Shown here one piece after another: positions 1-28,326 of a stretch of 64,000 bases of DNA (position 1 is its first letter; every line of letters starts with the position of its first letter). The notes under the pieces are model-generated. The model saw only the letters and a program-made list of their open reading frames with translations, did not search any database and had not been told where the DNA came from. This DNA comes from Rahnella variigena (lineage in GTDB: Bacteria > Pseudomonadota > Gammaproteobacteria > Enterobacterales > Enterobacteriaceae). Location of the stretch: the NCBI RefSeq assembly GCF_003610915.1, contig NZ_NSDJ01000002.1, positions 186,001-250,000 on the forward strand, written 5' to 3'. The translations under genes were made by a program, and so were the position numbers.

Positions 1-1681
1 GCCCGGTTTGTTTTATATCGATACCTCCTACAGTAATAGTACCGCTCTCAGGATGTAATAAACCAAGGATGACTTTCGCTAACGTTGTCTTACCCTGACC
101 AGATGGACCGACAATCGCTATACTTTCGCCCGCACGAATGGTCAGGTTGGCACCGTCAATAACCCAGGCATCAGTCGAACCATAGCGGAACTTAATGTCT
201 GATAATACGATATCCTGTGCTGGCTGGTGCTCGTCGGTGGTATGCACGAGACCCGGGCTGGCTTCAGAGCTGGCCTCTGTTTCAGACAGGACGATATCTG
301 CAAGTCGTTCTCCGTGCATTCGCAGCATACGAAAATCTATTATCGCATTGATTAAACCTGCACCACGGCTCATAAACTGATCGGAAAAACTAATGAATGC
401 CGTGAGCATACCTGCAGAGAAATTCCCATCGAGCACCTGAAGCGCGGCTAACCAAACCAGGGCTACTCGCCCTACAGAAGTGAGTAAGCCTTGTGCGGAG
501 CCGAACAGAATGTTGAGCTTCTGCATGACAATGCCTTTGTTGGTGCTGTCCACCATCAAATTCATATAGGCTGCCAGTCGGGGTACCTGCTTATTATTCG
601 TTTTGACAGCCTGAATGCCGCGAAGTGTTTCCAGTAATGATGACTGCGTGCGTGCCGAACTGATAATTTGCTCTTCATTGGCGCGGCGAACCGGGTCATA
701 AGCCATGAATCGCAGCAGGGCATAAACAACAAACAAGCCAATGACTAACCAGGCAAGTTTAGCGTTGTAAATAAACAACATTACTACTGTCACGATTGAC
801 ATCACACCATCGAGAACCGTGCTGATAAATCGGGTGGTGAGAGTGCTTTGTATCGTGTTTAATGAGGCGTAGCGCGAAAGAATATCGCCCACATGACGCG
901 ATTCAAACCAGTCAAGAGGAAGCTTCAGCATATGGTGGCAGACATTAATGGTCCATTGCACACTCAATTGACTGGAGAACCAACTCATTACCCATGAGCG
1001 TAGTGCTGAGATAATGGTCTGAAACAGGGCAATCATCATGAAACCGACGCCAAGTAGCGTTAGTAATGAATAATCGGCAGAAACTAGCACCATATCCATG
1101 ACCCATTGCATAAAGAATGGGGATAAAACACCGAACAGCTCCAACGCTACCGACAAAATAAGAACCTGAACGAAAGCGGACTTTACCCCTGTCACGCTTC
1201 CAACAAGTTTTCTCATTGAAATCCGCGCTTTCTCTTCTTTCACTTCAAAGGTGGAGGAGGGCACAAGTTCCAATGCGACACCGGTAAAAGTATTCGATGC
1301 TTCTTTAAACGTGACCTCACGAATGCCACGCGCGGGATCGTGAAGAGTGATCTTGTTACCACGCACTTTCTTAAGTACGACAAAATGGTTCAATTCCCAA
1401 TGTAAAATACAAGGGGTACGGAGTTTCGACAGCTCTTCAAGGTCAACGCGCAGTGCACGCGAGCTCATATTCAGTTGCTGCGCAATGCCGATGACATCGG
1501 AAAGCGTCGCCCCTTTAAGCGATGTAGAAAATTGCCGGCGCAGGGTGATCATATCGATCTCATGCCCGTGATAGTTGGCAATCATACCCAGACAGGCTAA
1601 TCCGCATTCGGCCGCTTGCGACTGACGGATTAAAGGCAGACGGTTAAACCATTTAAAATTGAGTTTCTCTAATAACAACAC
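1..1681 (-). CDS. C39-peptidase ABC exporter of a microcin-type type I secretion system (3' part beyond window)
   Basis: This is a bifunctional exporter that cuts double-glycine-type leaders in the cytoplasm and moves the peptide through an inner membrane channel. The N-terminal C39 domain has an intact catalytic set: Cys26 in AAECGLACL, His99 in ELNHFVVL and Asp115 in LHDPARG. Transmembrane segments fill roughly residues 150-440. The nucleotide-binding domain begins near residue 490, and Walker A GPSGQGKT lies at residues 525-532. The ABC signature and Walker B lie past the left edge, so the gene is incomplete only because of the window. I place the start at a GTG at 1681, with a GAAGG ribosome site 8 bases upstream and 16 bases after the HlyD-like stop. 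The family is CvaB/MchF-like. The likely substrates are the two leader peptides at 10176-10725. Confidence 0.93.
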   Translation of the reverse strand, partial: MLLLEKLNFKWFNRLPLIRQSQAAECGLACLGMIANYHGHEIDMITLRRQFSTSLKGATLSDVIGIAQQLNMSSRALRVDLEELSKLRTPCILHWELNHFVVLKKVRGNKITLHDPARGIREVTFKEASNTFTGVALELVPSSTFEVKEEKARISMRKLVGSVTGVKSAFVQVLILSVALELFGVLSPFFMQWVMDMVLVSADYSLLTLLGVGFMMIALFQTIISALRSWVMSWFSSQLSVQWTINVCHHMLKLPLDWFESRHVGDILSRYASLNTIQSTLTTRFISTVLDGVMSIVTVVMLFIYNAKLAWLVIGLFVVYALLRFMAYDPVRRANEEQIISSARTQSSLLETLRGIQAVKTNNKQVPRLAAYMNLMVDSTNKGIVMQKLNILFGSAQGLLTSVGRVALVWLAALQVLDGNFSAGMLTAFISFSDQFMSRGAGLINAIIDFRMLRMHGERLADIVLSETEASSEASPGLVHTTDEHQPAQDIVLSDIKFRYGSTDAWVIDGANLTIRAGESIAIVGPSGQGKTTLAKVILGLLHPESGTITVGGIDIKQTG

Positions 1682-1697
1682 AGAACAGACCTTCTAA

Positions 1698-2957
1698 TCA
1701 GAGCGAAATTTTGTGACCCAGCGCGAAAATCGGCTCAAGTACCCACTCGTAAAGACGACGTTTGTCGACGATAAAATCGGCGTCCAGCGCCATTCCCGGT
1801 TTTAGTGGCTCGTTTTGCATATAGGCTTTAATAGATTGTTTATCTAATGCCACCAGTACACGGTACTGTTGTTCTTCAACATTGTTTTTTCCGGTGAGCG
1901 TGGCGACTTCCTGCGGAGAAAGTGCTGTACGAGAGACCTCAATGACTTTTCCGTATTGCTGACCAAACTTCTGATAGGGAAAGGCTTTATAACGCAGTAC
2001 GACGCGCTGCCCGGCCTGGATGAAACCGATGGACTTAGTATTCACCATCATGCGAGCGACAAGTTCAGTGTCACTGGGTAATATCGAGATCGCTGACTGG
2101 CCAGCGTTCAGCATTTGGCCATTCTTAATCATGATCATGCCGATATAGCCACTTTTTGGAGCACGCAATTCAAATGAACGGCGTGCTTCGTTCTCAACCA
2201 ATGCCTGGCGATTGTCCGCGAGTTGCCGTTCGATATCGTTACGTTTCTTATCGTCATCAAGAGGCTTCTCATGGCGCTGCTGCTGAGCCTGCAAGATTTT
2301 TTGCGCGATATCTAAAATTTGCCGCTGATATTCCTGTTGCCGTGCCTGGCTGTCGAGTAAGTTTGACTCCTGCTCTTCAAGTTGACGGCTGGAGGCGTAA
2401 CCCTGTGTATGCATGGCATTGAGTTTATCCAGCTGTAGTCGTGCTAAACTCACTTGTTTTTTGCGTTGTGCTAATTGAATTTTTAGCTGTTCTTGCTGTA
2501 GCTCAAGGCTGGCGATTGTCTCATTAACACCTTGCATCTCAACGGCATGCAGTTTGCTCAGTGTATTAAGATCTTGCTGTAGCCGTTCACGTTGTGCCGC
2601 CAGGTTTTCAGCAATCATCTGGCGAGTCTGACCCAGCTGTGTCGAGACCTCAGATGACAACACCATAACAACATCGCCTTTTTCTACGTGCTGGCCTTCT
2701 TTGACTGGAATATCAATTACAGTCGCGCTAACCGGGGGGGGAATAACTAACATGCCGTTCCTGGGTAATAACTCACCCGTTGAAGATTCGTATTTGGTAT
2801 AACTGCCAAAAATAAAGAACAGGGCAGTGGCTGCCGTGATAACGACAACAATAGAAATAACCAACCAGCGATAGGGTGGGCAATAAAGTGCGACGGTTCC
2901 AAGATTACCGCGGTTGGCTGCATCGAGCGCTTCCTGGCGAAAAAGTGACTGTTCCAT
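1698..2957 (-). CDS. HlyD/CvaA-like periplasmic adaptor of the microcin-type exporter
   Basis: This is the membrane fusion subunit that links the C39 ABC exporter to the outer membrane channel. It has a short cytoplasmic N-terminus, one membrane segment at about residues 29-53 (WLVISIVVVITAATALFFIF), a first half-lipoyl region (VKEGQHVEKGDVV), long Gln/Leu-rich coiled coils at about 110-265, and a second lipoyl half followed by a beta-barrel domain. At 419 residues the length matches CvaA/MchE-type adaptors. It sits between the TolC-like gene (26 bases upstream) and the ABC gene (16 bases downstream), so the three export genes are very probably co-transcribed. Confidence 0.93.
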   Translation of the reverse strand: MEQSLFRQEALDAANRGNLGTVALYCPPYRWLVISIVVVITAATALFFIFGSYTKYESSTGELLPRNGMLVIPPPVSATVIDIPVKEGQHVEKGDVVMVLSSEVSTQLGQTRQMIAENLAAQRERLQQDLNTLSKLHAVEMQGVNETIASLELQQEQLKIQLAQRKKQVSLARLQLDKLNAMHTQGYASSRQLEEQESNLLDSQARQQEYQRQILDIAQKILQAQQQRHEKPLDDDKKRNDIERQLADNRQALVENEARRSFELRAPKSGYIGMIMIKNGQMLNAGQSAISILPSDTELVARMMVNTKSIGFIQAGQRVVLRYKAFPYQKFGQQYGKVIEVSRTALSPQEVATLTGKNNVEEQQYRVLVALDKQSIKAYMQNEPLKPGMALDADFIVDKRRLYEWVLEPIFALGHKISL

Positions 2958-2983
2958 TTAACTATTCATTTTATTGGGTTGAT

Positions 2984-4327
2984 TTAGCGGCACTGAAAAA
3001 AATTCAGCATATCGAGCGATAATGAACCGGTACTCTGTGCAAGATTGATCATGGCGTTTAAGTAATTCAAACGAGCCTCTGCCTGATCTTTAAGTATGCT
3101 GTAATACTTTTGCTGAGCATCGAGTTCATCATTAACTGTGCGAAATCCCATTTCACGTCCATATTGAACGGATAAGACTTTTTCGCGTGCAGAGGCGACC
3201 GCATTCTTTTCAGCGTCGATAAGAGCGGTGCCATTAGTGAGACTGAGCCAGGCAGAACGGGTATCCTGAACGGCCTTTCGCTGCGCTTCTAACGTGGAGT
3301 ATTTAGCGGCTTCGCGTCGATAAGTGGCCTCAAAAGATTGCGATAGCTGGCTGCCGCCTGCGAAAAGCGGAACAGAAACGTTTACACCGTATTGCAGGTT
3401 ATTGCTTTTGGAATTGGTGCCGAAAATAGCATCATAAAGAATATTGTCATCATTATCATTGCGGCTCCAGTTCTTGCCATAGCTTGCATAGAGCGAAACC
3501 ACTGGCATATGCGCGCCGTCTGCGGCGAGCACATCAGCATCAGTTTGGTCATGCTGAAATTGCGCGATTCTGATATCTGTATTGCGCAACTGGCTGACAC
3601 TGATCGCTTCTGACAAGGAAGAATAGGGCGTCGATTTAAGGCATTGAAAATTCACCGCCTCCAATGTGTCTGGGTTAATCCCGGATAAACGGCGTACGGC
3701 CTCCCCGGCCAGAAGCAACTGGTTACTGGCTTCAATCTGCTTTGCCTGCGCGATAGCATAGTTAGCATTTGCCTCATCAACTTCAGTGCGTGTGTTTTGA
3801 TCATTGCGCAATCCGGCCTGAAGTTTTTCCATTTGCTGTTTAAAATTGTGCGTTGCAGCTTGTGCTGCCTGTAATACTTCCTGCTGGTAGAGAACCGTGA
3901 AATAGGCATTGGCGATCGAACCGAGCAGTTTTTCTTCAGCCTGGCGCGCCTGCGCTTCTGCGGTATTAGCAATCGCGACGCCTTTACGCCAACCGGCATA
4001 TTTACTCATATCAAACAAGGGTTGCCGGACACGGACATCATAGTTGTGGGTTGTCACGCCACTCTGGTATTTTTTGTCTGGTTGTTCCTGACGGTCCCAG
4101 CCTCCTTCCAACGTCAGAGTGGGCAGCATTCCTGACATTCCTTGCCAGTATTTCTGTTTATCGGCTTCGCTGGTCTGCTTGCTTGACTGCAACGCCGAAT
4201 CATAAGTTAAAGCTGCCTGCGCAGCTTGCTGTAAATTAGTTGCGTTTGCGCCGGATGAGGCACAAATAAATGCAATAAAAATACAATTCTTTTGATAGTG
4301 TTTCATTATTTTCGCTGTTTCATGCAA
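2984..4327 (-). CDS. TolC-family outer membrane channel protein
   Basis: This is an outer membrane efflux protein, predicted to form the exit duct for the neighbouring C39 ABC/HlyD pair. It has a signal peptide ending near ASSGANA, then two long helical repeats rich in Ala, Gln and Glu, with typical text such as NAYFTVLYQQEVLQAA and NDELDAQQKYYSILKDQAEA. The 447 residues match TolC. An alternative ATG at 4306 (MKHYQKNC) gives a more usual signal peptide. Neither start has a clear ribosome site. A cluster-specific TolC is notable because most class II microcin exporters use the chromosomal tolC. Confidence 0.9.
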   Translation of the reverse strand: MHETAKIMKHYQKNCIFIAFICASSGANATNLQQAAQAALTYDSALQSSKQTSEADKQKYWQGMSGMLPTLTLEGGWDRQEQPDKKYQSGVTTHNYDVRVRQPLFDMSKYAGWRKGVAIANTAEAQARQAEEKLLGSIANAYFTVLYQQEVLQAAQAATHNFKQQMEKLQAGLRNDQNTRTEVDEANANYAIAQAKQIEASNQLLLAGEAVRRLSGINPDTLEAVNFQCLKSTPYSSLSEAISVSQLRNTDIRIAQFQHDQTDADVLAADGAHMPVVSLYASYGKNWSRNDNDDNILYDAIFGTNSKSNNLQYGVNVSVPLFAGGSQLSQSFEATYRREAAKYSTLEAQRKAVQDTRSAWLSLTNGTALIDAEKNAVASAREKVLSVQYGREMGFRTVNDELDAQQKYYSILKDQAEARLNYLNAMINLAQSTGSLSLDMLNFFQCR

Positions 4328-4342
4328 TAAGTAATATCAGGC

Positions 4343-5023
4343 CTAAATTAATTCCTGAGTCAAAACATACTTTATTAAATCTGTGTTCGAATGTAGTTGA
4401 AGCTTACGCATCGCATTGTATTTCTGTGTTGCTACAGTACTCACACTACGTTTACGTAACCTTGCTATATTCATTAAGCTGTGCCCCATTGCAAAAAGCC
4501 GGATTATTTCCAACTCTGATGGGGTTAAAACATTATTACTTTCAACAAACAGCCGGTCTGATACCAAATTTTTCATCTGTTCTGAATAATAAATTCTTTT
4601 ACGTGGATAAGTAATCCAGTGAAAAGCTTCAACTAACTGATGCCGGTTATCACGTTTGCTTACGATGCCGTTTATCGGAGTCTGAATGACCTTATTCAAA
4701 AGAGCTTGATTGGTCTGAGCTGTAAAAATAATAATTTTCATGTCAGGATGCCGCTTTCTAACCTCCTCAATTTTTCTAATGCCGTTTAAATTCGATTGTT
4801 CAGGGCCGAAATTCAAGTCAGTAATTAAAATTTCAGGTGGATTTTCATTTAACTGTGTTAACAAGTCCTCCCCGTCAACCGGATAAGAGAAAATTTCGTG
4901 CCGGATAAGTTCAGCTGCCAGTATAGTCTGGATGGAATACACAATGAAGGGACTCTCATCAGATACACCAATTCGGAATATGTTTTTTTTCTGTGGCATA
5001 TCGTTTGAAAGTCCTTTATTCAA
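4343..5023 (-). CDS. NarL/RcsB-type response regulator with LuxR helix-turn-helix
   Basis: This is a DNA-binding response regulator. A receiver domain covers about residues 15-135 and keeps the acidic pair Asp22/Glu23, the predicted phospho-acceptor Asp69 (LITDLNF) and the later Lys in IVSKRDN. The LuxR-type helix-turn-helix covers about residues 163-222 (LTPSELEIIRLFAMGHS, then VSTVATQKYNAMRKL). No histidine kinase is nearby. It lies between the fimbrial adhesin (44 bases, with a hairpin) and the TolC-like gene (15 bases), so it probably controls the fimbrial and export genes. That role is an inference from position. Confidence 0.9.
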   Translation of the reverse strand: MNKGLSNDMPQKKNIFRIGVSDESPFIVYSIQTILAAELIRHEIFSYPVDGEDLLTQLNENPPEILITDLNFGPEQSNLNGIRKIEEVRKRHPDMKIIIFTAQTNQALLNKVIQTPINGIVSKRDNRHQLVEAFHWITYPRKRIYYSEQMKNLVSDRLFVESNNVLTPSELEIIRLFAMGHSLMNIARLRKRSVSTVATQKYNAMRKLQLHSNTDLIKYVLTQELI

Positions 5024-5037
5024 TACTATCCAGATAA

Positions 5038-5062
5038 GGCAAGGCTCCGGTGGAGCCTTGCC
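5038..5062 (-). terminator. Hairpin after the fimbrial adhesin gene
   Basis: An 11-bp perfect inverted repeat (GGCAAGGCTCC / GGAGCCTTGCC) has a 3-base loop and begins 5 bases after the adhesin stop codon. No strong T run follows on the minus strand. It may act as a partial terminator or mRNA 3' stabiliser, lowering expression of the regulator and exporter relative to the pilus genes. Confidence 0.5.
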
Positions 5063-5067
5063 AGGTA

Positions 5068-6120
5068 TTACTGATAACTTATCGTATACGTTGCAACAGC
5101 ATTGGCACTTCCCGGACCCACAGTATCTTTAATCTGATAATAACGTGCATATAAAGGTACTGTTATTAACGCAGCAGAAAGAGGGTACGATGCCACATTA
5201 AAAGGTGTTGCTAAGGCAACCGGTTGTTGATTTTCATTCAAAATCTGTACCCCTACACCGCTTGCGGTCGAAGAAGAATTAAGTGCCATTACACCTATGT
5301 CCGATAAACCGCTAACGGCGTCACCATCAAATTGCATCATGACGTCAAAAGAACCGGACAATAATGATTCGCAGTTGAGTTGTACGTTAAAGGGAATCAT
5401 ATTGCTGGTCTGCCCGATGCCTGACCCTAATCCACTGCTTTTGCTGACAGAATAACTCCCAAGCGGTACATATTTGTTAGTATCGCCAGCGACAGAACAC
5501 GTTTCGTCCTTAACCGTGATACCTGATTTGATATTAGTGAAGTAAAACTTCAGGTCTGTTCCGGTAACAAAAGAGCCCACATCAAAGACGTTCACATAAC
5601 TACGGAGCGAGTTTGAACTTGTCATGGACGCTGACGTCCTGACAATTTCAAATGGCACAGTCAGAGAGACGTCTGTATAAGCCCCGACCGTTCCCCCGCT
5701 GGTAAGAGCATAGGTGCTGATCGTTTGTCCGGTAGCGACTGATACGGGTTCGGCCGCCATATCACCGCCATAACCCGTATAAATAGTCAGACCGTAGCCC
5801 AGCGTGCCTTCAGCGATAGCCTTGCGCTTGAAATAAACTTCGCTGGTCAAACCATCTACGAACTGCTGCAAGTTGTCCAATGCGCACTGAAACTGAACCG
5901 TAAAACTGCCGCTGTAGACGACAGTACCCACGGGTACGGCTGACGATATAGACAATCCTAGAGAACTGAAGTCTAAGGCCGCGTCAGTATTCGTTTTCTT
6001 ACACAGCAAAGTGACATTATCATCTGCCTGCGCATTAGCCGTCAGCATACCCAAAGTTAATGCCACTGCCATGGCAGGAATCAAATGACTCATTTTTTTG
6101 TATAAATTAAAATATGACAT
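5068..6120 (-). CDS. Two-domain fimbrial tip adhesin
   Basis: This is the likely receptor-binding tip subunit of the chaperone-usher fimbria. After a signal peptide (cleaved near TANAQA) comes a lectin-like N-terminal region to about residue 190. A C-terminal pilin domain follows, starting around DETCSVAG and ending with the alternating hydrophobic donor strand motif VATYTISYQ. The 350 residues are about twice a pilin, as expected for FimH-type adhesins, though the binding domain is not recognisable. I start at ATG 6120 because it gives a clean signal peptide and an AGGTG site 7 bases upstream. Longer reading back to 6198 would overlap the usher. Start and usher stop are 13 bases apart. Confidence 0.88.
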   Translation of the reverse strand: MSYFNLYKKMSHLIPAMAVALTLGMLTANAQADDNVTLLCKKTNTDAALDFSSLGLSISSAVPVGTVVYSGSFTVQFQCALDNLQQFVDGLTSEVYFKRKAIAEGTLGYGLTIYTGYGGDMAAEPVSVATGQTISTYALTSGGTVGAYTDVSLTVPFEIVRTSASMTSSNSLRSYVNVFDVGSFVTGTDLKFYFTNIKSGITVKDETCSVAGDTNKYVPLGSYSVSKSSGLGSGIGQTSNMIPFNVQLNCESLLSGSFDVMMQFDGDAVSGLSDIGVMALNSSSTASGVGVQILNENQQPVALATPFNVASYPLSAALITVPLYARYYQIKDTVGPGSANAVATYTISYQ

Positions 6121-6133
6121 AAAATTCACCTGA

Positions 6134-8722
6134 TTAGCCCTTGATATCATTATTGCTTGATTCATTGGAAACATAACGAGACTCGCGAGACTTATCATCG
6201 CTACAGGTTGTTTCTATTCTCGCCAGAGTATTGTTATTACTGCTACGAACGTTGCCAGATTCAAGGTTAACCAGACAGTTGTCTGTTGGCTTTTTACCCC
6301 ATGAAATATGTAGCTGACTGATGTCTTTATTCAGCCTGGTATATATTTGTCCTCCCTGGGAGACAGTGGCTACGAGGTTTCCATTCTCATCATTAACTGC
6401 TGCACCAAAGGGGAGGGGATTCCCGTCCAACTGATTTGCACGTATTAAAAGTGGTTGCCCTTTACTTGTTTTGTAATCAACTTTTACTACCGCACCTTCA
6501 ATAGGAATAACACGCTGTTGTGTCGCTTCCAGTTCAACATCGAGCGGAATACCTTTTGGATCTATTGCCAGTTCATTGATACGGTAAGGCATCAGATTTG
6601 GAACAATAGCCCGTCCATTACCATCTAAAACAATGTTTGGATAACCTATTACATGTGCGCCACTTGCATCCGGGGCAGTAATAATTGCATAGGTTGTTGC
6701 CTGATAAGCACTAAATGTCAGGCTATCAGGTAACGCGACCACTGTTCCACTGGCACCACCTGAAGCGGAATAATAGTTGCTTCCCTGGGTATAAGAAGCT
6801 GTAAGGGTGCTATATGGAGAGCGATATTGCCCACTGACCGAGCCGGACTTATTGTTCTCAGCATCACGTGCAGCGCTGACATTATAATTATATTGGTCGT
6901 AGTCTCCTAAAACACCATTAACAGCAGTCTGTGCAGTAACGCCTTCTTTTGAATGTGCTGCGCTTCCGGTGAGATAATTTTTACTATCGCTGCCTAAAGG
7001 AACAGAGAAGTCGATAGAGAATTGTGTATCGTGGCCGCCGGTTGAATATAATAATCGGTTTGCAGAAAAAGTATAGGCCACACGCCCGATAGTATTATTG
7101 TAACCTACCTGAAATTGGGTGTTTGTACCGGTTGAATTCCAGTAGTTTTGAACAAAACCAGTAAGATATACATTCCCAAATGAATCTCCTAAATTTTGGC
7201 TTGCTGTCAATGAAAAGCGTTGTTTTGGCCGGGAAAGATACGCTTTGGTTGTTTCGCTACCATACTTCTTGTAATAGTTGTTAATCTGCAGTGCATCATT
7301 AAAACTATAATAACCGGATGAAGAGAACCGGTATGCAGCAAGTGTAAAATTAGTATCAGTAGAAGAAACCTTCTTGCTATATGTTGCCCGATAGCTGACA
7401 CCTTGTTTTTTGCTATCTGCATATTCGGTCTGCGCCCCGGTGACATCCACGGAAATCGCACCAAATGGCAACCCGAAAGCCCCACCCAGTAATAAGGAGG
7501 TATAACTATCAGAGCCAAGAATGCCTGAATAGCCTGTCAGACTATTAGTGAAGCCATGCTGAATTGTGCCCTGATAAATTGACGGGGTGTAAACCATATT
7601 ATCGCGGCGAGACTGGCCACCTGTCAGGGTGTAATAAGTCATCCCCGGACGTTTTAAACGAGCCATGGAAGCATAAGGAACGGAAAAGTGTGATTCACTT
7701 CCGTCAGCTTCTTTAATCGTAACGTCTAAATCACCGCCGTAGCCAGTAGGGTAGAGATCGGAGATGTTAAATGCGCCAGGAGATACAGTGGTCTCATATA
7801 TTTTATTGCCATTTTGTGTGACGGATACTTGTGCGTTAGTACGGGCAATACCACGAATTTCAGGGGCATAGCCGCGTTGAGAGTCTGGCAACATCTGATC
7901 AACGGTCGAAATTTGTGCCCCTCTGAAAGACAGGGTATCGAAAATTTCACCACTCGTATTGCCTTCACCCAGCAGTAAGCGTGACTTAATCTGCGGAATA
8001 TCTCGTTGCACATAAGTATTAATGTCATCGTAATGATGATATTCAGTGCCTTGCTGACGTCGCCAGCTGAGTGCGCCATCGTGGCGGAACATCCAGCCAC
8101 CCACATTAAAACCGGCCAGCGCGCGACCATAAAAGGAGTTGTACTCTTTGGCGCTATAAACAGAGCGATAATAGTTGGTGTTATAATTTAATGAAAACGC
8201 ATTTTCACCGTGGTCCCAATACTCAGGCGATACATAGCCACGCGCCGTTCTGAACAGATAAATTTGCGGAATCGAGATGTCCATCTGCATATCGGCACTA
8301 TTTATTGCTGCATGGCTATCCTCAACAACTTCCTCGAGCGCTATACACTGGCTTTCTGAACGTAAATTCGTGATCTGTTTTGCATCAAAAACGCTATCCT
8401 TGATTGCCAGGCTTTTGATTAAATTATAGGAAAGGCAGGCCTTATTACTATTGCCATCACGTATTACACGCACATTTTCACGGCTTACCAGGCGGCCATT
8501 GAGGTAAATATCAAGCGTATATACACCAGGGTCGATGGGATTTCCCTGAGCATAACGAGTCACATCTACCTTGACGCCCGACAGGTTTTTTACAAAAGAC
8601 TCATCAAAATCATAGCTGGTTTCTGCAAAAGTAGGGGCAGCCGAAGTTGTAAGAAAAACTGCCAAAAAAGAATACAGAATATCCCGACCCACTGACTTTT
8701 TCATATAGACTATCCCTGCCAT
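6134..8722 (-). CDS. Fimbrial outer membrane usher protein
   Basis: This is the FimD-family usher that catalyses pilus subunit polymerisation and secretion at the outer membrane. It has a signal peptide (SFLAVFLTTSAAPTFAE), an N-terminal periplasmic chaperone-docking domain with FDESFVKNLSGVKVDVTRY, a 24-strand barrel with plug (GYAPEIRGIARTNAQV, then PGAFNISDLYPTGYGGDLDV), and C-terminal domains (GAVVKVDYKTSKGQPLLIR) with a typical late cysteine pair. The 862 residues are full length. Two starts are possible: ATG 8722 with AAGGAA upstream, or ATG 8704 (MKKSVGRD) with AGGGA upstream. The gap to the chaperone stop is 27 bases. Confidence 0.95.
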   Translation of the reverse strand: MAGIVYMKKSVGRDILYSFLAVFLTTSAAPTFAETSYDFDESFVKNLSGVKVDVTRYAQGNPIDPGVYTLDIYLNGRLVSRENVRVIRDGNSNKACLSYNLIKSLAIKDSVFDAKQITNLRSESQCIALEEVVEDSHAAINSADMQMDISIPQIYLFRTARGYVSPEYWDHGENAFSLNYNTNYYRSVYSAKEYNSFYGRALAGFNVGGWMFRHDGALSWRRQQGTEYHHYDDINTYVQRDIPQIKSRLLLGEGNTSGEIFDTLSFRGAQISTVDQMLPDSQRGYAPEIRGIARTNAQVSVTQNGNKIYETTVSPGAFNISDLYPTGYGGDLDVTIKEADGSESHFSVPYASMARLKRPGMTYYTLTGGQSRRDNMVYTPSIYQGTIQHGFTNSLTGYSGILGSDSYTSLLLGGAFGLPFGAISVDVTGAQTEYADSKKQGVSYRATYSKKVSSTDTNFTLAAYRFSSSGYYSFNDALQINNYYKKYGSETTKAYLSRPKQRFSLTASQNLGDSFGNVYLTGFVQNYWNSTGTNTQFQVGYNNTIGRVAYTFSANRLLYSTGGHDTQFSIDFSVPLGSDSKNYLTGSAAHSKEGVTAQTAVNGVLGDYDQYNYNVSAARDAENNKSGSVSGQYRSPYSTLTASYTQGSNYYSASGGASGTVVALPDSLTFSAYQATTYAIITAPDASGAHVIGYPNIVLDGNGRAIVPNLMPYRINELAIDPKGIPLDVELEATQQRVIPIEGAVVKVDYKTSKGQPLLIRANQLDGNPLPFGAAVNDENGNLVATVSQGGQIYTRLNKDISQLHISWGKKPTDNCLVNLESGNVRSSNNNTLARIETTCSDDKSRESRYVSNESSNNDIKG

Positions 8723-8749
8723 TATTGTTTCCTTATATAACTAATCTTG

Positions 8750-9487
8750 TTACTGACCGAGTTGGCTTTCAACATCACGTGCTGCGCCAAAATCATCCAA
8801 ATATTGATAGTGAAGAGTGGGCTTTATATTGTCGATGTTGCTTGTTTTAAAGGTGAAATCTTTTGTTCCGTGGGGCAAAAGCATGCCACCATTTTCGCTT
8901 AAGACTTTGCGGCCATCAGCAGTCTCTGCCGTAATTTGAGCGACATTAATGTGATAGGGGGAATTGTTAACAGCGGTGAGCCGGTTAGTTTTATTGTTTT
9001 TACGCCAAATTAATGCCGCAGCCGATTTGTCAGCATCCCGGGAATTCAATCCTGTAGGCCGATAAAACAGTTTAATACGACTACGAATAGCCATCTGTAG
9101 CTGGTTTTTATCAGCCAGACTTTTATCTTTTGGTGGGATATCTAATACATTAAGCCAATAGATGGATTCTTTATCTGCGGGAAGATTGTTTCCTGTAAAT
9201 ACAATACGTAATGTCTGGCCCTTGTTGGCCTCCATGCGAAAAACGGGAGGGAGGAGAACAAAAGGAACATTGATTTTATCCACGGCCTGATTAATGTCGC
9301 CGTCATCAATCCATGCCTGTACCAGGGCGGGTTGATTACCACGATTATCCAGCCGTACTGTCACTTCCTTTTCGGAGGACGGATATATGACACGCGTTCC
9401 AATAATGGTGACATTGGCGGAAGCAGAGGAAAAGTAAACAGATGCTAGCAGAAGTGCAGCTAAAGAATTAAGGATTTTTTTTTTCAT
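8750..9487 (-). CDS. Periplasmic fimbrial chaperone (PapD/FimC family)
   Basis: This protein folds and caps pilin subunits in the periplasm by donor strand complementation. After a signal peptide (ASVYFSSASA) come hallmark PapD-family segments: GTRVIYPSSEKEVTVRLDN, the G1 strand region PFVLLPPVFRMEANKGQTLRI, and SIYWLNVLDIPPK. The second domain carries SRIKLFYRPTGL. I choose ATG 9487 because it puts the signal peptide at the N-terminus. The longer reading to 9547 adds a non-signal extension touching the pilin stop. No clear ribosome site is visible at 9487. Confidence 0.94.
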   Translation of the reverse strand: MKKKILNSLAALLLASVYFSSASANVTIIGTRVIYPSSEKEVTVRLDNRGNQPALVQAWIDDGDINQAVDKINVPFVLLPPVFRMEANKGQTLRIVFTGNNLPADKESIYWLNVLDIPPKDKSLADKNQLQMAIRSRIKLFYRPTGLNSRDADKSAAALIWRKNNKTNRLTAVNNSPYHINVAQITAETADGRKVLSENGGMLLPHGTKDFTFKTSNIDNIKPTLHYQYLDDFGAARDVESQLGQ

Positions 9488-9547
9488 GATGTTACTGGAA
9501 TCATTCAAGAGGGAAAGAGGTGGGAGACAAGCTCCCACCATCATCAA

Positions 9548-10078
9548 TTAAAGATAATTGATAGAATAAGTTACTGATGACGCTACGGTACCGGCAGTAG
9601 CTGCAGCAGTAGCATAGTAACGTGCAGCGTAAGTCAGAGTTGCCGCGCCGTCAGCCAGGGTTGCAGTGGTAGGAGAGGTTGACTGGTCAGTGCTACCTGC
9701 ATTTAAAGTAGTACCTGCATTATCCAGCAGTTCCAGATCAACGTTAGTAGCGGTCCCGGTATTCGTCAGACGGCCATTAGCATTCACATTGGCGCCTTGT
9801 TCAAAATAGGCATAAACGTCGCCAGTTGTTGTTGAACATTCACTCAGATCAACAGTGAAACGGGTGGCACCCGCAGTTTCGCCAGCAGTTTTGAGCAAGC
9901 TTGCTGCTACAGTTGGCAATGCTACGGTTGCTGAGCTGCTGCCGCCGTTGACGCTAACTGTACAAGTCTGGCTGTCAATATTACCAGTGAAGCTGATAGT
10001 GCCATCCGATGCTTCAGCAGCATTCACCTGAGAAGCAGCCAGCAGTAAACCTAAAGCAATCATGGAGACCTTTTTCAT
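9548..10078 (-). CDS. Major fimbrial subunit (type 1 pilin family)
   Basis: This is the structural pilin of the fimbrial shaft. It has a 20-residue signal peptide (AASQVNA), a pilin domain with the conserved Cys pair (SQTCTVSV and LSECSTT), the usual GTISFTGNI opening, and a C-terminal donor-strand acceptor end SVTYSINYL. The 176 residues are typical of FimA-like pilins, and it is rich in Ala and Thr. It is first of the fimbrial genes and lies 97 bases downstream of the second leader peptide, in the same direction. Confidence 0.94.
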   Translation of the reverse strand: MKKVSMIALGLLLAASQVNAAEASDGTISFTGNIDSQTCTVSVNGGSSSATVALPTVAASLLKTAGETAGATRFTVDLSECSTTTGDVYAYFEQGANVNANGRLTNTGTATNVDLELLDNAGTTLNAGSTDQSTSPTTATLADGAATLTYAARYYATAAATAGTVASSVTYSINYL

Positions 10079-10175
10079 ATACTATCCTTTGTATAAATAA
10101 AATTTAAATTACATTATGTTGAATGACGTTGATCATTCGTTTTACTTCTCTGAGAGAATCATTCTCTCCAGGGAA

Positions 10176-10397
10176 TTAGAAAAGCAGCAGACCAAAGACG
10201 ACGGTAGCAGCAATGCCGACAATACCCATTCCAAAAGCATTACCATTTACCGGCGTTGCTTCAGGAATCGAATCGGGCCGTTGCCATTCGACTTTTTCTT
10301 CAGATGAAGTGCCTAACTGTTTAAAAAAATCTAGAATTAATGATGTGAACGAGCCCCCGCTGACATCTTCAATTTCTTTTGTATTTAACTCACGCAT
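10176..10397 (-). CDS. Class II microcin-like precursor peptide with GG leader (second of two)
   Basis: This 73-residue peptide opens with a 15-residue leader ending VSGG, the form cut by C39 exporters (compare the colicin V leader ending in VSGG). The predicted mature part is 58 residues: a polar, charged first half (SSEEKVEWQRPDS) and a hydrophobic Gly-rich C-terminal segment ending GIAATVVFGLLLF, long enough to span a membrane. It starts at ATG 10397 with AAGGAA upstream, 10 bases after the other precursor. Export by the C39 system at 1-4327 is inferred. Its activity (toxin, partner peptide or pilus-linked factor) is unknown. Confidence 0.8.
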   Translation of the reverse strand: MRELNTKEIEDVSGGSFTSLILDFFKQLGTSSEEKVEWQRPDSIPEATPVNGNAFGMGIVGIAATVVFGLLLF

Positions 10398-10407
10398 TGA
10401 ATTTCCT

Positions 10408-10725
10408 TTATGCAGTGACTACAGATGCATTTGGATCAAATTGGTTTTCAACGATTTCATTGAACCAGGCAGATGTGGTGCTCCAGCCGTTAATCGCACC
10501 ATAAAGTGCACCATCAACAAGACCCACTACGGCGCCGACAACTAATCCCACACCGCCTGAAATAATCCCTGCACCAACGATGCCACCAGCACTTCCGCCA
10601 CTCATTGCCCATTTCAAGCCAAAAGCGGTAATACCCGTTACAGCGCCTACAACTACAGCACCAATAAAGTCAAAAAAACCCGCGCCTGAAACATTTTGCG
10701 TTTCAAATGATGTTAACTCTCTCAC
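10408..10725 (-). CDS. Class II microcin-like precursor peptide with GA leader (first of two)
   Basis: This 105-residue peptide has a 15-residue leader ending VSGA, matching the GA-type cleavage site of microcin E492-like precursors. The leader shares MREL at the start and VSG near the end with its neighbour. The mature part (about 90 residues) is very rich in Gly, Ala and Val in membrane-like stretches (GAVVVGAVTGITAFG, GIISGGVGLVVGAVVG), typical of pore-forming colicin V-type microcins. Translation begins at a GTG at 10725 with GGAGA 7 bases upstream. No immunity gene is recognised beside it. Confidence 0.82.
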   Translation of the reverse strand: MRELTSFETQNVSGAGFFDFIGAVVVGAVTGITAFGLKWAMSGGSAGGIVGAGIISGGVGLVVGAVVGLVDGALYGAINGWSTTSAWFNEIVENQFDPNASVVTA

Positions 10726-11755
10726 TTAATCTCTCCATCCATTTAATCTAATAATTTTTCCATTTACTTACATCACCGTCTGAAGCAAGTGGCGCTATTA
10801 AATTGATTAATTGATTCGAGTTAAATAGTAAAAAATCCATAATTTATATTTTTTTAGAAGTTCTTTGGCGTTTTTTACATTTTTATAACGCCTATGATTT
10901 TTTTTGTGCCGAGTGTTTCTGACTCAAAGCTAATCTAATTAAAATGAATAATATCAATAAATTGTAATAATTCTGCTCCTGATTTAATTAAGGATTTGTA
11001 ATTATCACTCCAAATTCAGACGCTAAATTTACAGAAATTTCAAAATATCAGTCATTCATCAATTTCGTTAATTTCGCTGTTCAACTATCTGGTCATAAAA
11101 ACCGTTCAATAAACTGAAGTTTGCTGCACATTTTGGAGTGTAAAACTATTTAAAAGTTAATTATAAGCATAAAAAACTAAATAAATGGCATTTTCTTATT
11201 TAAATACCTGTTTTGGGCATGATGTGGTTAACTACTGTGGCAATGAACGAACAAGAGGGAGTGTGTCAGATGCGTGTATTAACATTGAACCCAAAATGAT
11301 TATTCACTTTATTACCTCAGGTGATTTTTTAATAGATTGTTGTTTTTATTTCCATAAACGATGTGATGTATAACATCTATGGTTCATATGGTAATGGAAA
11401 ATACAATTTTTCAGAAATAAGTTATAAAACAATCAGGAAGCCACTGTTTGCAAGATAACGGATCTGAATCATGATCATTAAATGGTTTGTTATACGGCTT
11501 ATGTTCAAATAACTAGCATTTATATCTATTTTTGGCTCAGTTTGTGGGATTGAATTTTATTAGCGTGGAATTAATATAGTTCTCCCGGTTAAGTGTCTCT
11601 TTATCGAACCATAAATTTCATGGGTTTCGTGGATGACTTTTATTAGTTGTTCTCGATCACTATAAAGAACACAACAGGCTGGTTTGAGTTACTTTTGATA
11701 CTAACAAGGACCATGGAACCTTGCCTTGTAAGTCAGTTTAATTGAGTTGACAGAT
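10726..11755. other. AT-rich intergenic region between divergent gene trains
   Basis: About 1 kb with much lower GC than its neighbours and no convincing gene on either strand. It must carry the promoters of the leftward microcin/fimbrial train and of the rightward regulator genes. Many short A/T runs would suit H-NS binding, which is inference. I see no clear -35/-10 pair that I would defend. Confidence 0.6.
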
Positions 11756-12346
11756 ATGCATAGAGTGAACGCAAATTATGACCGAATTATCGACGCATTA
11801 GCTGGATATACGCATGTAGCAAATCCTGATGAGATTTCACGCGGTAAACGGCGATATCATTTAACCAAAGATAACGTACGTCGGGTTATGTTTATCATGG
11901 ATGGAGACTTTTTGCTGAAGCTGAAAGGAAGAAATAAGGTGCTTAATATTTTATCTTCACCGTCAGTGGTGGGGGTGACACCTGCTTTTGATGAGTCGCC
12001 AGTATATCTGGAAAGGATAGATTATGGAAAAATCAATTACATCGAATATGATGTTTTTTGGCGATTAATTTTTGAAAAGGATTTATTTAATGATGCCATG
12101 TCTATTTTGGCATGCCAATATTCAGACTTAATGGATTACATTCAGTTATCTAAAAGTAATTCTTACGATGAAGTGACTTCTCTGATTGAGCGTTGGAATA
12201 AATTGCCCACTCATCTTAAGAGACGTTTTTCTGTTCTCTATTTGATTGAACATAGTTCCCATCTTTCAAAAAGCTCCATAAGCAGAGTTTTGAAAGACCT
12301 TAAAGAGAAAGGGGAACTCGAGTTGATTAACGGAAAATTTATCTAG
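11756..12346 (+). CDS. IprA/YaiV-like winged-helix regulator (putative)
   Basis: About 196 residues. The N-terminal part resembles a Crp-like cyclic-nucleotide-binding fold without recognisable ligand residues (FIMDGDFLLKLKGRNKVLNI). The C-terminus is a winged helix (HLSKSSISRVLKDLKEKGELELI). This layout recalls the IprA/YaiV group of enterobacterial regulators, but the match is from memory of the layout and is not strong. A TTG at 11747 in the same frame could add three residues. Neither start has a clear ribosome site. It precedes a LuxR-type regulator and the giant adhesin locus, so local control is likely. Confidence 0.7.
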   Translation: MHRVNANYDRIIDALAGYTHVANPDEISRGKRRYHLTKDNVRRVMFIMDGDFLLKLKGRNKVLNILSSPSVVGVTPAFDESPVYLERIDYGKINYIEYDVFWRLIFEKDLFNDAMSILACQYSDLMDYIQLSKSNSYDEVTSLIERWNKLPTHLKRRFSVLYLIEHSSHLSKSSISRVLKDLKEKGELELINGKFI

Positions 12347-12391: not shown

Positions 12392-13024
12392 ATGGATATT
12401 AAAGTTATATGTTCTGATGCTGATTTTTATTTTAAGAATGGCATTTCAAAAATAATTGAAGATGCTTTGCCAACGAAAAATAAAATTTCGTTTGTCGATA
12501 AGATCAATAGCGAAAGTATATCTCAGGCAGACTTCATTATAATTAATGCTGCCCACTGGCGTCTTTATATGTGTCATCCTGCCTACCGCTTTAGAAAAAA
12601 AAGCAGTGTCCTGATTTTATTCACTGACGATGACAGTAATATTTCGTCCGAAAAATTGCCAGTCTGCTATCAATCATTGACCTGCATATCGCAGACGGAA
12701 ACTGTCAGAAACGTTAAGTATAAAATCGCGAAAGCCTGGTTTTTAGCAAATGAATTAAACATTTCTTACTACAGGTCAGGTGATTGTATAAGGTGCAAGT
12801 TACCACGGATTTCATTAATTCAGCTGAGAGTGTTACATCATTTTAAAAAGGGCGATACCGTCCACCAGACTGCTAAATATCTTGGTGTGTCAGTAAAAAC
12901 AGTTTATACGCATAAATATAACATTATGAGGAAGTTTTATATAAAAGGTGATTTTCTATTTTATTCCTTCATCAGACATGTTTCCCTTTTCGAGCTCTAT
13001 ACAGGGTCATTAAATGATGAATGA
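12392..13024 (+). CDS. LuxR-type regulator with degenerate receiver domain
   Basis: 210 residues. The C-terminal LuxR helix-turn-helix is clear (LIQLRVLHHFKKGDTVHQTA, then VSVKTVYTHKYNIMRKF). The N-terminal half is laid out like a response-regulator receiver, but the phospho-acceptor position reads IIINAAHW, without Asp. It is therefore probably an atypical regulator not driven by phosphorylation. It sits 45 bases after the IprA-like gene and about 150 bases before the OmpA-like gene of the adhesin locus. Confidence 0.83.
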   Translation: MDIKVICSDADFYFKNGISKIIEDALPTKNKISFVDKINSESISQADFIIINAAHWRLYMCHPAYRFRKKSSVLILFTDDDSNISSEKLPVCYQSLTCISQTETVRNVKYKIAKAWFLANELNISYYRSGDCIRCKLPRISLIQLRVLHHFKKGDTVHQTAKYLGVSVKTVYTHKYNIMRKFYIKGDFLFYSFIRHVSLFELYTGSLNDE

Positions 13025-14145: not shown

Positions 14146-14178
14146 TTGGATTTATCTTTATTTAATAAGAAGGTTATC

Positions 14179-17100
14179 ATGTTAAAAATTAATATGCGTA
14201 GTGCAAAGGGGATTACATCTTCTTTCACTGTCGAAACGAATACAGATCAGAGTACGACAATTAAAGTGCCTAATCATGGTGCATTAAATATTGAACTCAT
14301 CGATAGCGCGACGGGTCATGCACCACAAATGGTGATGACTAAGCGTGTTGGTAACAATTTACTCCTCGTTATCGGCCAGGGAGATCTCGACCATCCCGAT
14401 GTTATTTTTGAAGATTATTATGACAATGATAATGCTCATCTGGTAGGCCTGGGTGAAAACGGACAGTATTATGAATATGTTCCCACATCTGGCGATGTCG
14501 CTGAATACACTCCCGCTCTGACCGAAGGTAAAAGTGGTGAATTAGTACTTGGCGGTGAAGGTTATACAAGTGCTGATCCTATCCTTGCTGACGATAATCA
14601 TTTCGGCTGGCTTCCTTTTATGTTGTTAGGCGGTGCGGCTGCAGCGGGGGGTATTGTTGCAGCGGTTTCCAGCAGCGGCGGCAGTGATCATCATTCTGAA
14701 AATAAAACAGTGACGGTCACTCTCGACCCCATTACTGATGCAGATCAGAACGGGCGTCCGGAATTCTCCGGGACTTCAAATACTGCTAATTCGCAGGTTG
14801 TCATTCTCTTGCCTGATGGTTCGCAAATCACCACACAAACTGACAGCGAGGGTCACTGGTCTGTTGAAGCGCCATCTTCGCAACCGAACGGGACAGTGAC
14901 TGTCACGGTCACTGACAGTGAGGGTAACAGCGCAAGTCTGGTAGAAGAGTACTCTGACAACGTATTGCCTGAGTCTGCTGTTATTAACGTTAATGACAAT
15001 GATCAGATGGCGGGCAAGGCAGAACCGGGCTCTACAGTCATCATTACTGATGGTGAAACCGGTGAAACAATTACCGTTGATGTTGATGAAAACGGCGACT
15101 GGAGTATCCAGCCTAACCCGGTCAATGAAGGTGACAGCGATGTAAGCATCGTCGTCGTTGATCCTGCAGGTAATGTTTCTCCTCCGACTGACGCTTCTCG
15201 TGAAGATACCACGGCGCCGGACAACGTCACTTCCGGCGTGGTGACCGACAGCATCACCCTGACCGACGACGTGGGACCGGTGACCGGCGCTATCGCGGAC
15301 GGCGCGGTGACCGACGATGCGCGTCCGACCTTTGCGGGTCAGGCGACGGCGGACATTGATCACGTCAACATTTACGACAACGGCGAGCTGGCGGGCACCG
15401 CAGCGGTGGACGAAAACGGCCAGTGGAGCTGGACGCCGGAGCAGGACCTGGCGGACGGTGAGCACGATCTGACGGTCGCAGCGGTAGACGCGGCGGGCAA
15501 CGAAGGTCCGCAGGCGGACGGCGGTTGGGGCTTTACCGTGGACACCACCACGGCGGTGCCGGAAATTACCGTGAACACCGAGGACGAGCTGGCGGGTAAC
15601 GCCGAGCCGGGCGCGGTGATCGTGATCACCGATCCGACCAGCGACAGCGAAACCAGCGTGGTGGCGGACGAGGACGGGCACTGGAGCATCCAGCCGAACC
15701 CGCTCGCCCCGGGCGACGCGGCGGTGGTGGTTGAGGCAACCGATGAAGCGGGCAACAGCAGCAGCATCGTGATCGACGGCCCGGCCGACAGCACGGCGCC
15801 GGACAACGTCACTTCCGGCGTGGTGACCGACAGCATCACCCTGACCGACGACGTGGGCCCGGTGACCGGCGCTATCGAGGACGGCGCGGTGACCGACGAT
15901 GCGCGTCCGACCTTTGCGGGTCAGGCGACGGCGGACATCGATCACGTCAACATTTATGACAACGGCGAGCTGGCGGACACCGCAGCGGTGGACGAAAACG
16001 GCCAGTGGAGCTGGACGCCGGAGCAGGACCTGGCGGACGGTGAGCACGATCTGACGGTCGCAGCGGTAGACGCGGCGGGCAACGAAGGTCCGCAGGCGGA
16101 CGGCGGTTGGGGCTTTACCGTGGACACCACCACGGCGGTGCCGGAAATTACCGTGAACACCGAGGACGAGCTGGCGGGTAACGCCGAGCCGGGCGCGGTG
16201 ATCGTGATCACCGATCCGACCAGCGACAGCGAAACCAGCGTGGTGGCGGACGAGGACGGGCACTGGAGCATCCAGCCGAACCCGCTCGCCCCGGGCGACG
16301 CGGCGGTGGTGGTTGAGGCAACCGATGAAGCGGGCAACAGCAGCAGCATCGTGATCGACGGCCCGGCCGACAGCACGGCGCCGGACAACGTCACTTCCGG
16401 CGTGGTGACCGACAGCATCACCCTGACCGACGACGTGGGCCCGGTGACCGGCGCTATCGAGGACGGCGCGGTGACCGACGATGCGCGTCCGACCTTTGCG
16501 GGTCAGGCGACGGCGGACATCGATCACGTCAACATTTACGACAACGGCGAGCTGGCGGGCACCGCAGCGGTGGACGAAAACGGCCAGTGGAGCTGGACGC
16601 CGGAGCAGGACCTGGCGGACGGTGAGCACGATCTGACGGTCGCAGCGGTAGACGCGGCGGGCAACGAAGGTCCGCAGGCGGACGGCGGTTGGGGCTTTAC
16701 CGTGGACACCACCACGGCGGTGCCGGAAATTACCGTGAACACCGAGGACGAGCTGGCGGGTAACGCCGAGCCGGGCGCGGTGATCGTGATCACCGATCCG
16801 ACCAGCGACAGCGAAACCAGCGTGGTGGCGGACGAGGACGGGCACTGGAGCATCCAGCCGAACCCGCTCGCCCCGGGCGACGCGGCGGTGGTGGTTGAGG
16901 CAACCGATGAAGCGGGCAACAGCAGCAGCATCGTGATCGACGGCCCGGCCGACAGCACGGCGCCGGACAACGTCACTTCCGGCGTGGTGACCGACAGCAT
17001 CACCCTGACCGACGACGTGGGCCCGGTGACCGGCGCTATCGAGGACGGCGCGGTGACCGACGATGCGCGTCCGACCTTTGCGGGTCAGGCGACGGCGGAC

Positions 17101-26660: not shown

Positions 26661-26912
26661 TCTTCATTCGTTGCTATTTTTCTTCCTGTTGCTGATACCT
26701 TCACCGATTTTTAACAGTTGGCGTATGTTCACATTTTTGGAACAAAAATGTAAATAAGAGCCCATTTTAAGGATTTAAAATCCATATATGGACTTTTTGC
26801 AGAATTAACGTTGTAGGTGATGCTCGGGTCGTTACAAGATATGCCATCGCAGTATTTGTCTGGTGGCAGTGTAAATAGCCAGTTTCACTCACTAGTTATT
26901 TTTGAGTTAATT

Positions 26913-28238: not shown

Positions 28239-28326
28239 GCCTATTTTCAATAAAGGGTATGCATGCCGTGAGATCTTTCCGCTTGTCGCCATGCCACCCT
28301 GAATTCATTGTCCAGAGGACAACATC

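Follow-up and report, generated by a model that had tools for sequence, protein, structure and literature searches.

Microcin PDI (proximity-dependent inhibition) is a type I exported peptide which acts at close range, and we know of no pilus or Eag-like gene associated with it. Eag-type chaperones are, to our knowledge, found only in type VI secretion systems (T6SS). The Cdz system of Caulobacter is described in PMC5380434, together with a list of 239 Cdz-like proteins, whose criteria are a length of 60-151 aa, a leader ending in G[G/A/S], a glycine zipper unbroken by proline or charge, and a polar C-terminus. The same report states that many Cdz-like regions include adhesion genes (thin aggregative fimbriae, fimbrial adhesins), that CdzC aggregates on the surface of its producer and that, according to its authors, the small membrane immunity proteins are hard to identify. 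According to PMC13101503, a class II microcin is encoded next to its immunity gene. PF08786 covers two kinds of protein, namely DcrB, which is a lipoprotein, and the Eag chaperones of T6SS; in the latter, the transmembrane helices that they bind are contacted by S37, S41, Q58 and Q102 (Q106 in SciW) (PMC7773334). The window analysed here, 64,000 nucleotides of Rahnella variigena (G000:C2:186001-250000), belongs to a replicon of 742,735 bases in a 5.5 Mb genome and contains most of an operon of 11 genes, in which two small peptides, a chaperone-usher fimbria, a type I exporter and an Eag-like protein are encoded in one direction. Gene content and order in related loci establish the fimbria, the peptides and the exporter as a genetic unit.

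Gene order and peptides of the operon

The 11 genes are on the minus strand and read leftwards from position 10725, the eleventh being located beyond the window edge. Two open reading frames (ORFs) encode peptide 1 (105 aa, 10408..10725, leader ending in GA) and peptide 2 (73 aa, 10176..10397, leader ending in GG). They are followed by a complete fimbria, whose four components were identified by Pfam and, for the adhesin, also by alignment: the major fimbrial subunit (9548..10078; PF00419/PF16970, Fimbrial), the periplasmic pilus chaperone (8750..9547; PapD_N/PapD_C), the outer-membrane usher (6134..8722; PF00577, E 3e-164; clade A in the usher tree) and the tip adhesin (5068..6198), which shows an N-terminal region before a C-terminal Fimbrial domain at 228-376. 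Downstream of the adhesin are a LuxR/NarL-type response regulator (4343..5023; Response_reg and GerE), for which RcsB is the nearest NCBIfam model with a score under that model's cut-off, a TolC-family outer-membrane channel (2984..4327; OEP), a HlyD-family periplasmic adaptor (1698..2957; HlyD_3) and a C39 peptidase/ABC exporter (Peptidase_C39 and ABC; 1..1681 in the window). The C39-ABC protein, completed outside the window (L004, up to L004:9504), has 725 aa, and its gene is overlapped by 8 nt by the last gene of the operon, an Eag-like PF08786 gene of 144 aa (L004:9077-9511). Comparison with the annotated Pantoea orthologues makes internal true starts likely for the adhesin (about 6120), the chaperone (about 9487) and the TolC gene (about 4306). 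The genes named in the preliminary description were all found on the minus strand, in one direction and with the expected Pfam domains, and the spacing it gave, 10 nt between the peptides and 97 nt between peptide 2 and the pilin, is correct.

The peptides start with MRELT..VSGA (peptide 1) and MRELN..VSGG (peptide 2), which we take to be leaders of the C39 type, and neither of them matched a Pfam or NCBIfam family at E<=0.01. Mature peptide 1 contains 10 GxxxG steps against 3.6 in shuffled sequences (p=0.0003) and shows, by eye, two glycine-zipper hydrophobic stretches, a GGSAGG turn and a polar C-terminal tail (STTSAWFNEIVENQFD..); the zipper G43-G68 is free of proline and charge. Length, leader end, zipper and tail of peptide 1 thus agree with all four Cdz-like sequence criteria. 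With peptide 1, a family search at E<=1e-3 yielded 72 proteins, counting that of the window; named sequences of Pantoea, Erwinia, Serratia, Gibbsiella and Burkholderia are among these. Peptide 2 shows an ILDFF start after the leader and a hydrophobic C-terminus, is 75-81% identical in two Pantoea loci and has relatives in G042, G130, G050 and G086 and, by eye, in Burkholderia ubonensis.

Conservation of the fimbria-exporter linkage

The first 12 kb of the window match 37 records of the plasmid collection, all belonging to Pantoea and with 75-76% identity in those listed; the window's own genome or near-identical records may be left out of these matches. The P. agglomerans plasmid pASB05p2, the P. 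vagans plasmid pPV989-167 and G494 (L052 with L121) contain the eleven genes and a divergent pair of regulator genes in unchanged order. Among the Pantoea loci opened, the order is kept in full in L001, L002 and L052 with L121, and up to the contig or locus end in L026-L028. In PLSDB, peptide 1 (tblastn) is present in 39 records, a close exporter (at least 80% identity) in 38 and a close usher (73-79%) in 37, and comparison of the listings gives 37 records with all three; CP134721, CP134755 and OW970318 show peptide matches, and the close usher and exporter are not among the matches listed for them. The plasmid record NC_014561 of P. vagans C9-1, a strain used in biocontrol (PMC13174018), contains peptide 1, the usher and the exporter together with a DcrB-related gene. 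A related-locus search with peptide 1 gave three Pantoea loci, and megablast found no match in the Escherichia coli genomes.

In the GTDB family, a peptide 1 profile found a match in 16 of 246 genomes, and 20 regions around such matches were fetched, two of them from G494. Type A loci, in G230, G130, G042, G222 and, at a contig end, G050 (contig C58), contain an exporter of the window kind (C39 about 60% identical) and a fimbria whose usher is about 43% identical. Their order is regulator-TolC-HlyD-C39-peptide(s)-pilin-chaperone-usher-adhesin, with the exporter block upstream, whereas in the window it is downstream. The plasmid pRF23 of B. ubonensis, typed as conjugative, shows the type A order too, and in G222 the peptide genes are broken. 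Type B loci (G027, G242, G050:C34, G002, G153, G142 and G046) show a C39 protein about 43% identical and the order pilin-chaperone-usher-adhesin-peptide(s)-HlyD-C39; a TolC gene was not found in them, and G153 has near-identical peptide copies in tandem. P. deleyi and P. anthophila contain a type A-level exporter (C39 59-60%), an Eag-like gene, a third fimbria and a type B-looking peptide. G163 and G017 contain a type A exporter with a fourth fimbria, and an intact peptide gene was looked for in the gap and not found. The check across species proposed in the preliminary description had a positive outcome for the gene set, which is conserved in Pantoea plasmids, several further genera of this family and B. 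ubonensis. In a wider sample of the class (369 genomes, three candidates scored per genome) no further type A exporter was found, the window's exporter scoring 1335 bits and all others at most 926 bits.

Two further features of these loci were observed. A YjeJ-like gene (PF15922) is located directly after the C39 gene in five of the seven type B loci (L047, L051, L073, L089 and L097), in the position that the Eag-like gene has in type A. Three type A loci show a large autotransporter-like gene after the adhesin (L035 15470-18691, L036 1144-4260 and L038 16430-18340), with domains found for L035 and L036.

The linkage was counted over the 66 C39 matches listed, chosen irrespective of fimbriae (down to E 7.3e-36, with an open frame of at least 500 aa and one short frame excluded; the usher distance of the window's own row was set by hand). 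An usher is present within 10 kb on the same strand in 11 of them and on the opposite strand only in two (L091 and L095), where just a piece of an usher lies at the border of the region fetched. Five exporter regions are cut by contig ends or fetch limits, so that these counts are lower bounds. One linked locus, L099 (G024), is probably incidental, given its Cys/Pro-rich peptide and unrelated fimbriae, of which one is encoded on the opposite strand; its exclusion leaves 10/66. In this locus (G024:C56), a double-glycine precursor with a Cys/Pro repeat (CCPRPCPPPKPVCPPKPVC..) is encoded at 8357-8530, before a C39 exporter and between the two fimbriae.

In the exporter tree (79 rows), the linked exporters are in two supported groups (9/11 and 7/9 rows) plus L099. 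In the usher tree, clade A is one group of 13 rows (SH-aLRT 99), and all 13 ushers are beside such peptides, those of G222 being broken; the trees were built quickly, from rows that are related to one another. Clade A is adjoined by 24 ordinary ushers, of which a Janthinobacterium one is the nearest sister (support 88) and the other 23 form one group, and the ushers of type B, P. deleyi/P. anthophila and G163/G017 are placed away from it. C39 exporters thus have partners in at least four usher lineages, namely clade A, type B, P. deleyi/P. anthophila and G163/G017, the peptide not being found in the last. Ordinary fimbriae show neither such peptides (0/25) nor full C39 exporters (0/25) nearby. 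Both the leader pattern and tblastn with the two peptides were used, the latter because the pattern misses some true peptides, such as the window's peptide 1; a short leader-like frame in L138, beside an ordinary fimbria, was judged spurious by eye. These 25 ushers are the 20 next-ranked from the 246 genomes and five from plasmids, opened from seven further ones at 42-44% identity. The search model was built from clade A members, with three candidates scored per genome, and the 20 next-ranked among the ushers listed are all outside the clade. Judged by 13/13 in clade A against 0/25, the peptides are a durable trait of one fimbrial lineage. Since clade A was first met via peptide 1, its linkage is partly due to how the clade was selected, and it includes six close Pantoea-type loci; B. 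ubonensis was found via exporter and usher searches.

Chance neighbourhood was rejected on the four usher lineages and the strand bias, and simple plasmid hitchhiking on relatives, such as G130, which are on contigs of chromosome size. With the set conserved across species and genera, an accidental link of pilus and peptide export seems unlikely.

Transcript, Eag-like gene and neighbouring genes

The gene spacing suggests a single transcript, with weak help from hairpins. In the gap between peptide 2 and the major pilin (10079..10175, minus strand), folding and consensus indicate two possible RNA stem-loops, which hint that peptides and pilus share a transcript subject to processing or partial attenuation. 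The four loci folded gave z-scores of -1.6, -3.8, -1.4 and -4.4 for this gap; in a consensus of six aligned loci, both-side changes are present in 5/18 pairs, 12/18 pairs show a break or gap in one locus or more, and covariation contributes an unfavourable term. Rfam gave no match. The operon contains 23 promoter-like sites against 26.0 (sd 5.4) in shuffled sequences, which is chance level, and 11 terminator-like sites against 11.7. About 1 kb from peptide 1 stands the divergent pair, on the plus strand, formed by a winged-helix regulator (11747..12346; HTH_46) and a LuxR-type regulator (12392..13024; GerE). In seven Pantoea loci (L001, L002, L026, L027, L028, L052 and L126) the former is 79-83% identical and the latter 46-54%.

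The operon protein of PF08786 (DcrB; E 2e-15) is closer to the Eag chaperone SciW than to DcrB, judged by structure matches and alignment. Among solved structures it matches only SciW (E 9e-6; 1e-9 for the Pantoea orthologue) and no DcrB structure. The chromosomal DcrB of the same genome served as a control: it matches the DcrB structures 6e8a and 13cz (about 1e-63) but fails to match SciW. The operon protein has 144 aa and shows, by eye, no hydrophobic N-terminus or signal peptide, whereas the chromosomal DcrB has 188 aa and is lipoprotein-like. In the alignment with SciW, the equivalents of S41, Q58 and Q106 are S40, Q57 and Q104, and S37 is changed, so that three of the four polar Eag contact residues are conserved in the window clade; S40 and Q57 are the same in all 25 aligned sequences, and Q104 in nearly all. 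The G042 copy is without Q104, and the P. deleyi and P. anthophila copies retain, by eye, just the Q57 equivalent. The neighbours of the gene are the C39 exporter and regulators, and a prePAAR/transmembrane-domain effector of a T6SS is not among them. We read these features as recruitment of an Eag-like protein to a type I exporter, where it would bind the peptides.

The gene might instead serve a T6SS of the same replicon and be co-transcribed with the exporter by chance. The replicon contains two T6SS sheath genes (PF05943), at G000:C2:252642-253541, 2.6 kb past the right end of the window, and at 478046-478948. The only second PF08786 match in the genome is the chromosomal DcrB, and the operon gene is thus the one Eag-like candidate for these two T6SS loci. 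The 8-nt overlap with the C39 gene is, however, present in the window, P. agglomerans and P. vagans, an Eag-like gene is also beside the exporter in G043 and P. deleyi/P. anthophila, and, of the 38 Pantoea records in which a close exporter is present, 35 show an overlap of the C39 match with an annotated DcrB/DUF1795 gene. The Eag-like gene and the peptides are both missing from P. vagans LMG 24199. On this evidence we consider T6SS service improbable.

To the right of the divergent pair, the window contains a repeat-rich surface protein of 4160 aa (14146-26628), presumably "Bap-like", followed by its own TolC, ABC and HlyD genes (26817-31838); the C39-like domain in the ABC gene is weak. These genes form a second type I system beside the operon. 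On the minus strand, an open frame of 1569 aa (14776-19485) runs antisense to the gene of the repeat protein and is most likely a by-product of the repeats. A pertactin-type autotransporter and an S6-protease autotransporter are encoded at 32430-35333 and 36357-40394, and P. vagans (L002) shows an autotransporter and an S6 peptidase in the corresponding neighbourhood.

Possible functions and comparison with known systems

The reading that we favour, although tentatively for the chain as a whole, is that one operon couples attachment with contact delivery of membrane-inserting glycine-zipper peptides. In the cytoplasm, the Eag-like protein would keep the hydrophobic peptides in solution; the leader would be removed by the C39 domain during export through the type I channel, and the exported peptides would remain at or near the cell surface. 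The pilus would fix the cell to a neighbour, whose membrane the peptides would enter where the two cells touch, on the pattern of Caulobacter Cdz. A more far-reaching form of contact delivery, which we regard as rather unlikely, makes pilus and peptides a single organelle with an Eag-family chaperone feeding the exporter, a class separate from contact-dependent inhibition (CDI), T6SS and plain Cdz that has arisen repeatedly; the peptides would be placed at the contact or along the fibre, and C39 exporters would have been paired with unrelated fimbriae more than once. If coupling is correct, an adhesive organelle and a peptide exporter are joined at the level of a single operon, and the way in which short-range peptides reach their target becomes testable by removal of single genes. 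Eag-type chaperones would then also serve a type I exporter, which would explain how very hydrophobic peptides are kept ready for export.

Several observations weigh against this reading. An usher is present in 11 of the 20 regions fetched around peptide 1 matches and lacking in nine. These nine are mostly weaker matches (E 4e-8 to 1e-3) to glycine-rich peptides with a similar core, but G043 shows a good match (L040, E 7e-16) without usher, and neither a fimbria nor a full C39 exporter was found in about 38 kb around it. In G086, a clade A fimbria is preceded by four double-glycine peptide genes (L035 7843-10106), and the fetched stretch contains no C39 exporter, the one C39 match of the genome being elsewhere. 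Type A exporters without fimbria in the fetched stretch are present in G016 (L105) and G043 (L103/L118). P. vagans LMG 24199 has retained the regulator, TolC, HlyD and C39 genes and lost the peptides, this fimbria and the Eag-like gene; the Eag-like gene is also absent near the operon in G130, G230 and G222, and in the window's genome its product could serve the two T6SS loci. To these are added the missing immunity-like genes and the selection on the peptides, treated below. Peptide 1 relatives and type A exporters occur without fimbria, and the parts are separable. The preliminary description had named, as a refuting case, relatives that keep exporter and peptides together without the fimbrial block. 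This case is found in part: G016 and G043 supply the exporters without fimbria, but neither is adjoined by peptides 1 and 2. G043 has a different peptide there and its lone peptide 1 relative on another contig (L040/L116). In three P. agglomerans plasmids (L127, L128 and L130) the pilin-to-exporter stretch is gone and peptide genes or their remains persist, followed in L128 and L130 by a remnant of the Eag-like gene, as if that stretch had been lost in one piece.

In 18 loci with a fimbria and intact peptides, no small ORF with transmembrane-like character was found on the same strand within 400 nt of a peptide (0/18), by a filter that recovers only 5/26 in other C39 loci and is therefore insensitive; a stricter scan, which demanded a ribosome-site word, gave 0/18 and 0/26. 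Any ORF without assignment is beside a peptide in 4/18 fimbria loci and in 21/26 other C39 loci. More weight can be given to the compact build of the fimbria operons than to the membrane test, which is weak. The producer may be protected by the Eag-like protein or by a gene elsewhere. These counts bear on the possibility that the operon encodes an ordinary diffusible class II microcin, placed among fimbrial genes by happenstance and sharing only their regulation. Short precursors with double-glycine type leaders and a C39 ABC exporter with adaptor and outer-membrane channel agree with class II microcins, and type A exporters and peptide 1 relatives are also found free of fimbriae. The adjacent immunity gene was not found with the above filter, which lowers the class II reading, and the four usher lineages paired with exporters and the strand bias of 11 against 2 weigh against an accident, so that a diffusible microcin has little probability. 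Of the label "class II microcin" in the preliminary description, the leaders and the C39/HlyD/TolC export stand, and the label itself is not established, with no immunity-like ORF in the 18 fimbria loci.

The peptides show dN/dS values of 0.06-0.19 where computable, against 0.10-0.16 for the pilin, with dS often near saturation; they are under purifying selection like the pilin and look undiversified. This is one of the points in favour of the strong rival of contact delivery, ranked close behind it, in which the peptides are a surface or biofilm factor and not toxins. As amyloid-like or membrane-inserted peptides they would assemble on the producer surface or the pilus and strengthen adhesion or matrix. 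We hold this role to be a serious possibility, if a somewhat doubtful one. It agrees with the absence of an immunity-like gene in the 18 loci, with G086, where the peptide genes stay with the fimbria and the C39 exporter is not nearby, with the tandem near-identical copies in G153, with the neighbouring surface proteins (giant adhesin-like protein and autotransporters) and with the aggregation of CdzC on its producer described in PMC5380434. On the other side, the two-peptide make-up and the Eag-like chaperone recall membrane-attacking systems, related simple fimbriae manage without peptides, and exporter and fimbria are kept where the peptide gene is broken (G222) or was not found (G163 and G017). 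If the peptides are surface components, plant-associated bacteria would possess a class of exported peptides tied to the pilus. A host-directed role, with the pilus binding plant or insect tissue and the peptides permeabilising or signalling to host cells, would fit the listed sources of the Pantoea records, which are often plants, and the S6-type autotransporter protease nearby; the records also come from soil, water, food and clinical samples, and this role is very unlikely.

The preliminary description knew of no described system with a pilus operon inside a microcin locus. In open-access PMC literature, no paper on the joint operon or on Eag proteins with type I secretion was found: the words "fimbria" and "usher" are absent from the main texts of PMC9746304, PMC13174018, PMC13101503 and PMC11494933, and type I secretion is unmentioned in PMC12881460, on Eag chaperones. 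The claim is nevertheless a little too strong, given the fimbrial adhesins near Cdz-like loci mentioned in PMC5380434.

The operon of the window shares with class II microcins of the E. coli MccV type (PMC9746304, PMC13101503) the double-glycine leader and C39-ABC/HlyD/TolC export, and differs from them in the embedded fimbria, in the adjacent immunity gene, which was not found, and in peptides without NCBIfam or Pfam model. The fimbria itself is, in make-up, of the ordinary four-gene pilin-chaperone-usher-adhesin type, but the 25 ordinary chaperone-usher fimbriae checked are without such a peptide or full C39 exporter. With Cdz the operon shares two small peptides, a leader end G[G/A/S], glycine zippers (in peptide 1) and a type I exporter. 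Unlike Cdz, it shows pilus genes between peptides and exporter in the same direction and an additional Eag-like gene; an immunity-like gene was not seen, nor was the small membrane immunity protein of the Cdz-like criteria found by the insensitive filter in the 18 fimbria loci. The Eag-like protein resembles the Eag chaperones SciW and EagT6 (PMC7773334) in its PF08786 domain, its small size and, within the window clade, the retained equivalents of S41, Q58 and Q106. It differs from them in the changed S37 and in its gene neighbourhood, where the place of a prePAAR effector is taken by small peptides and a type I exporter.

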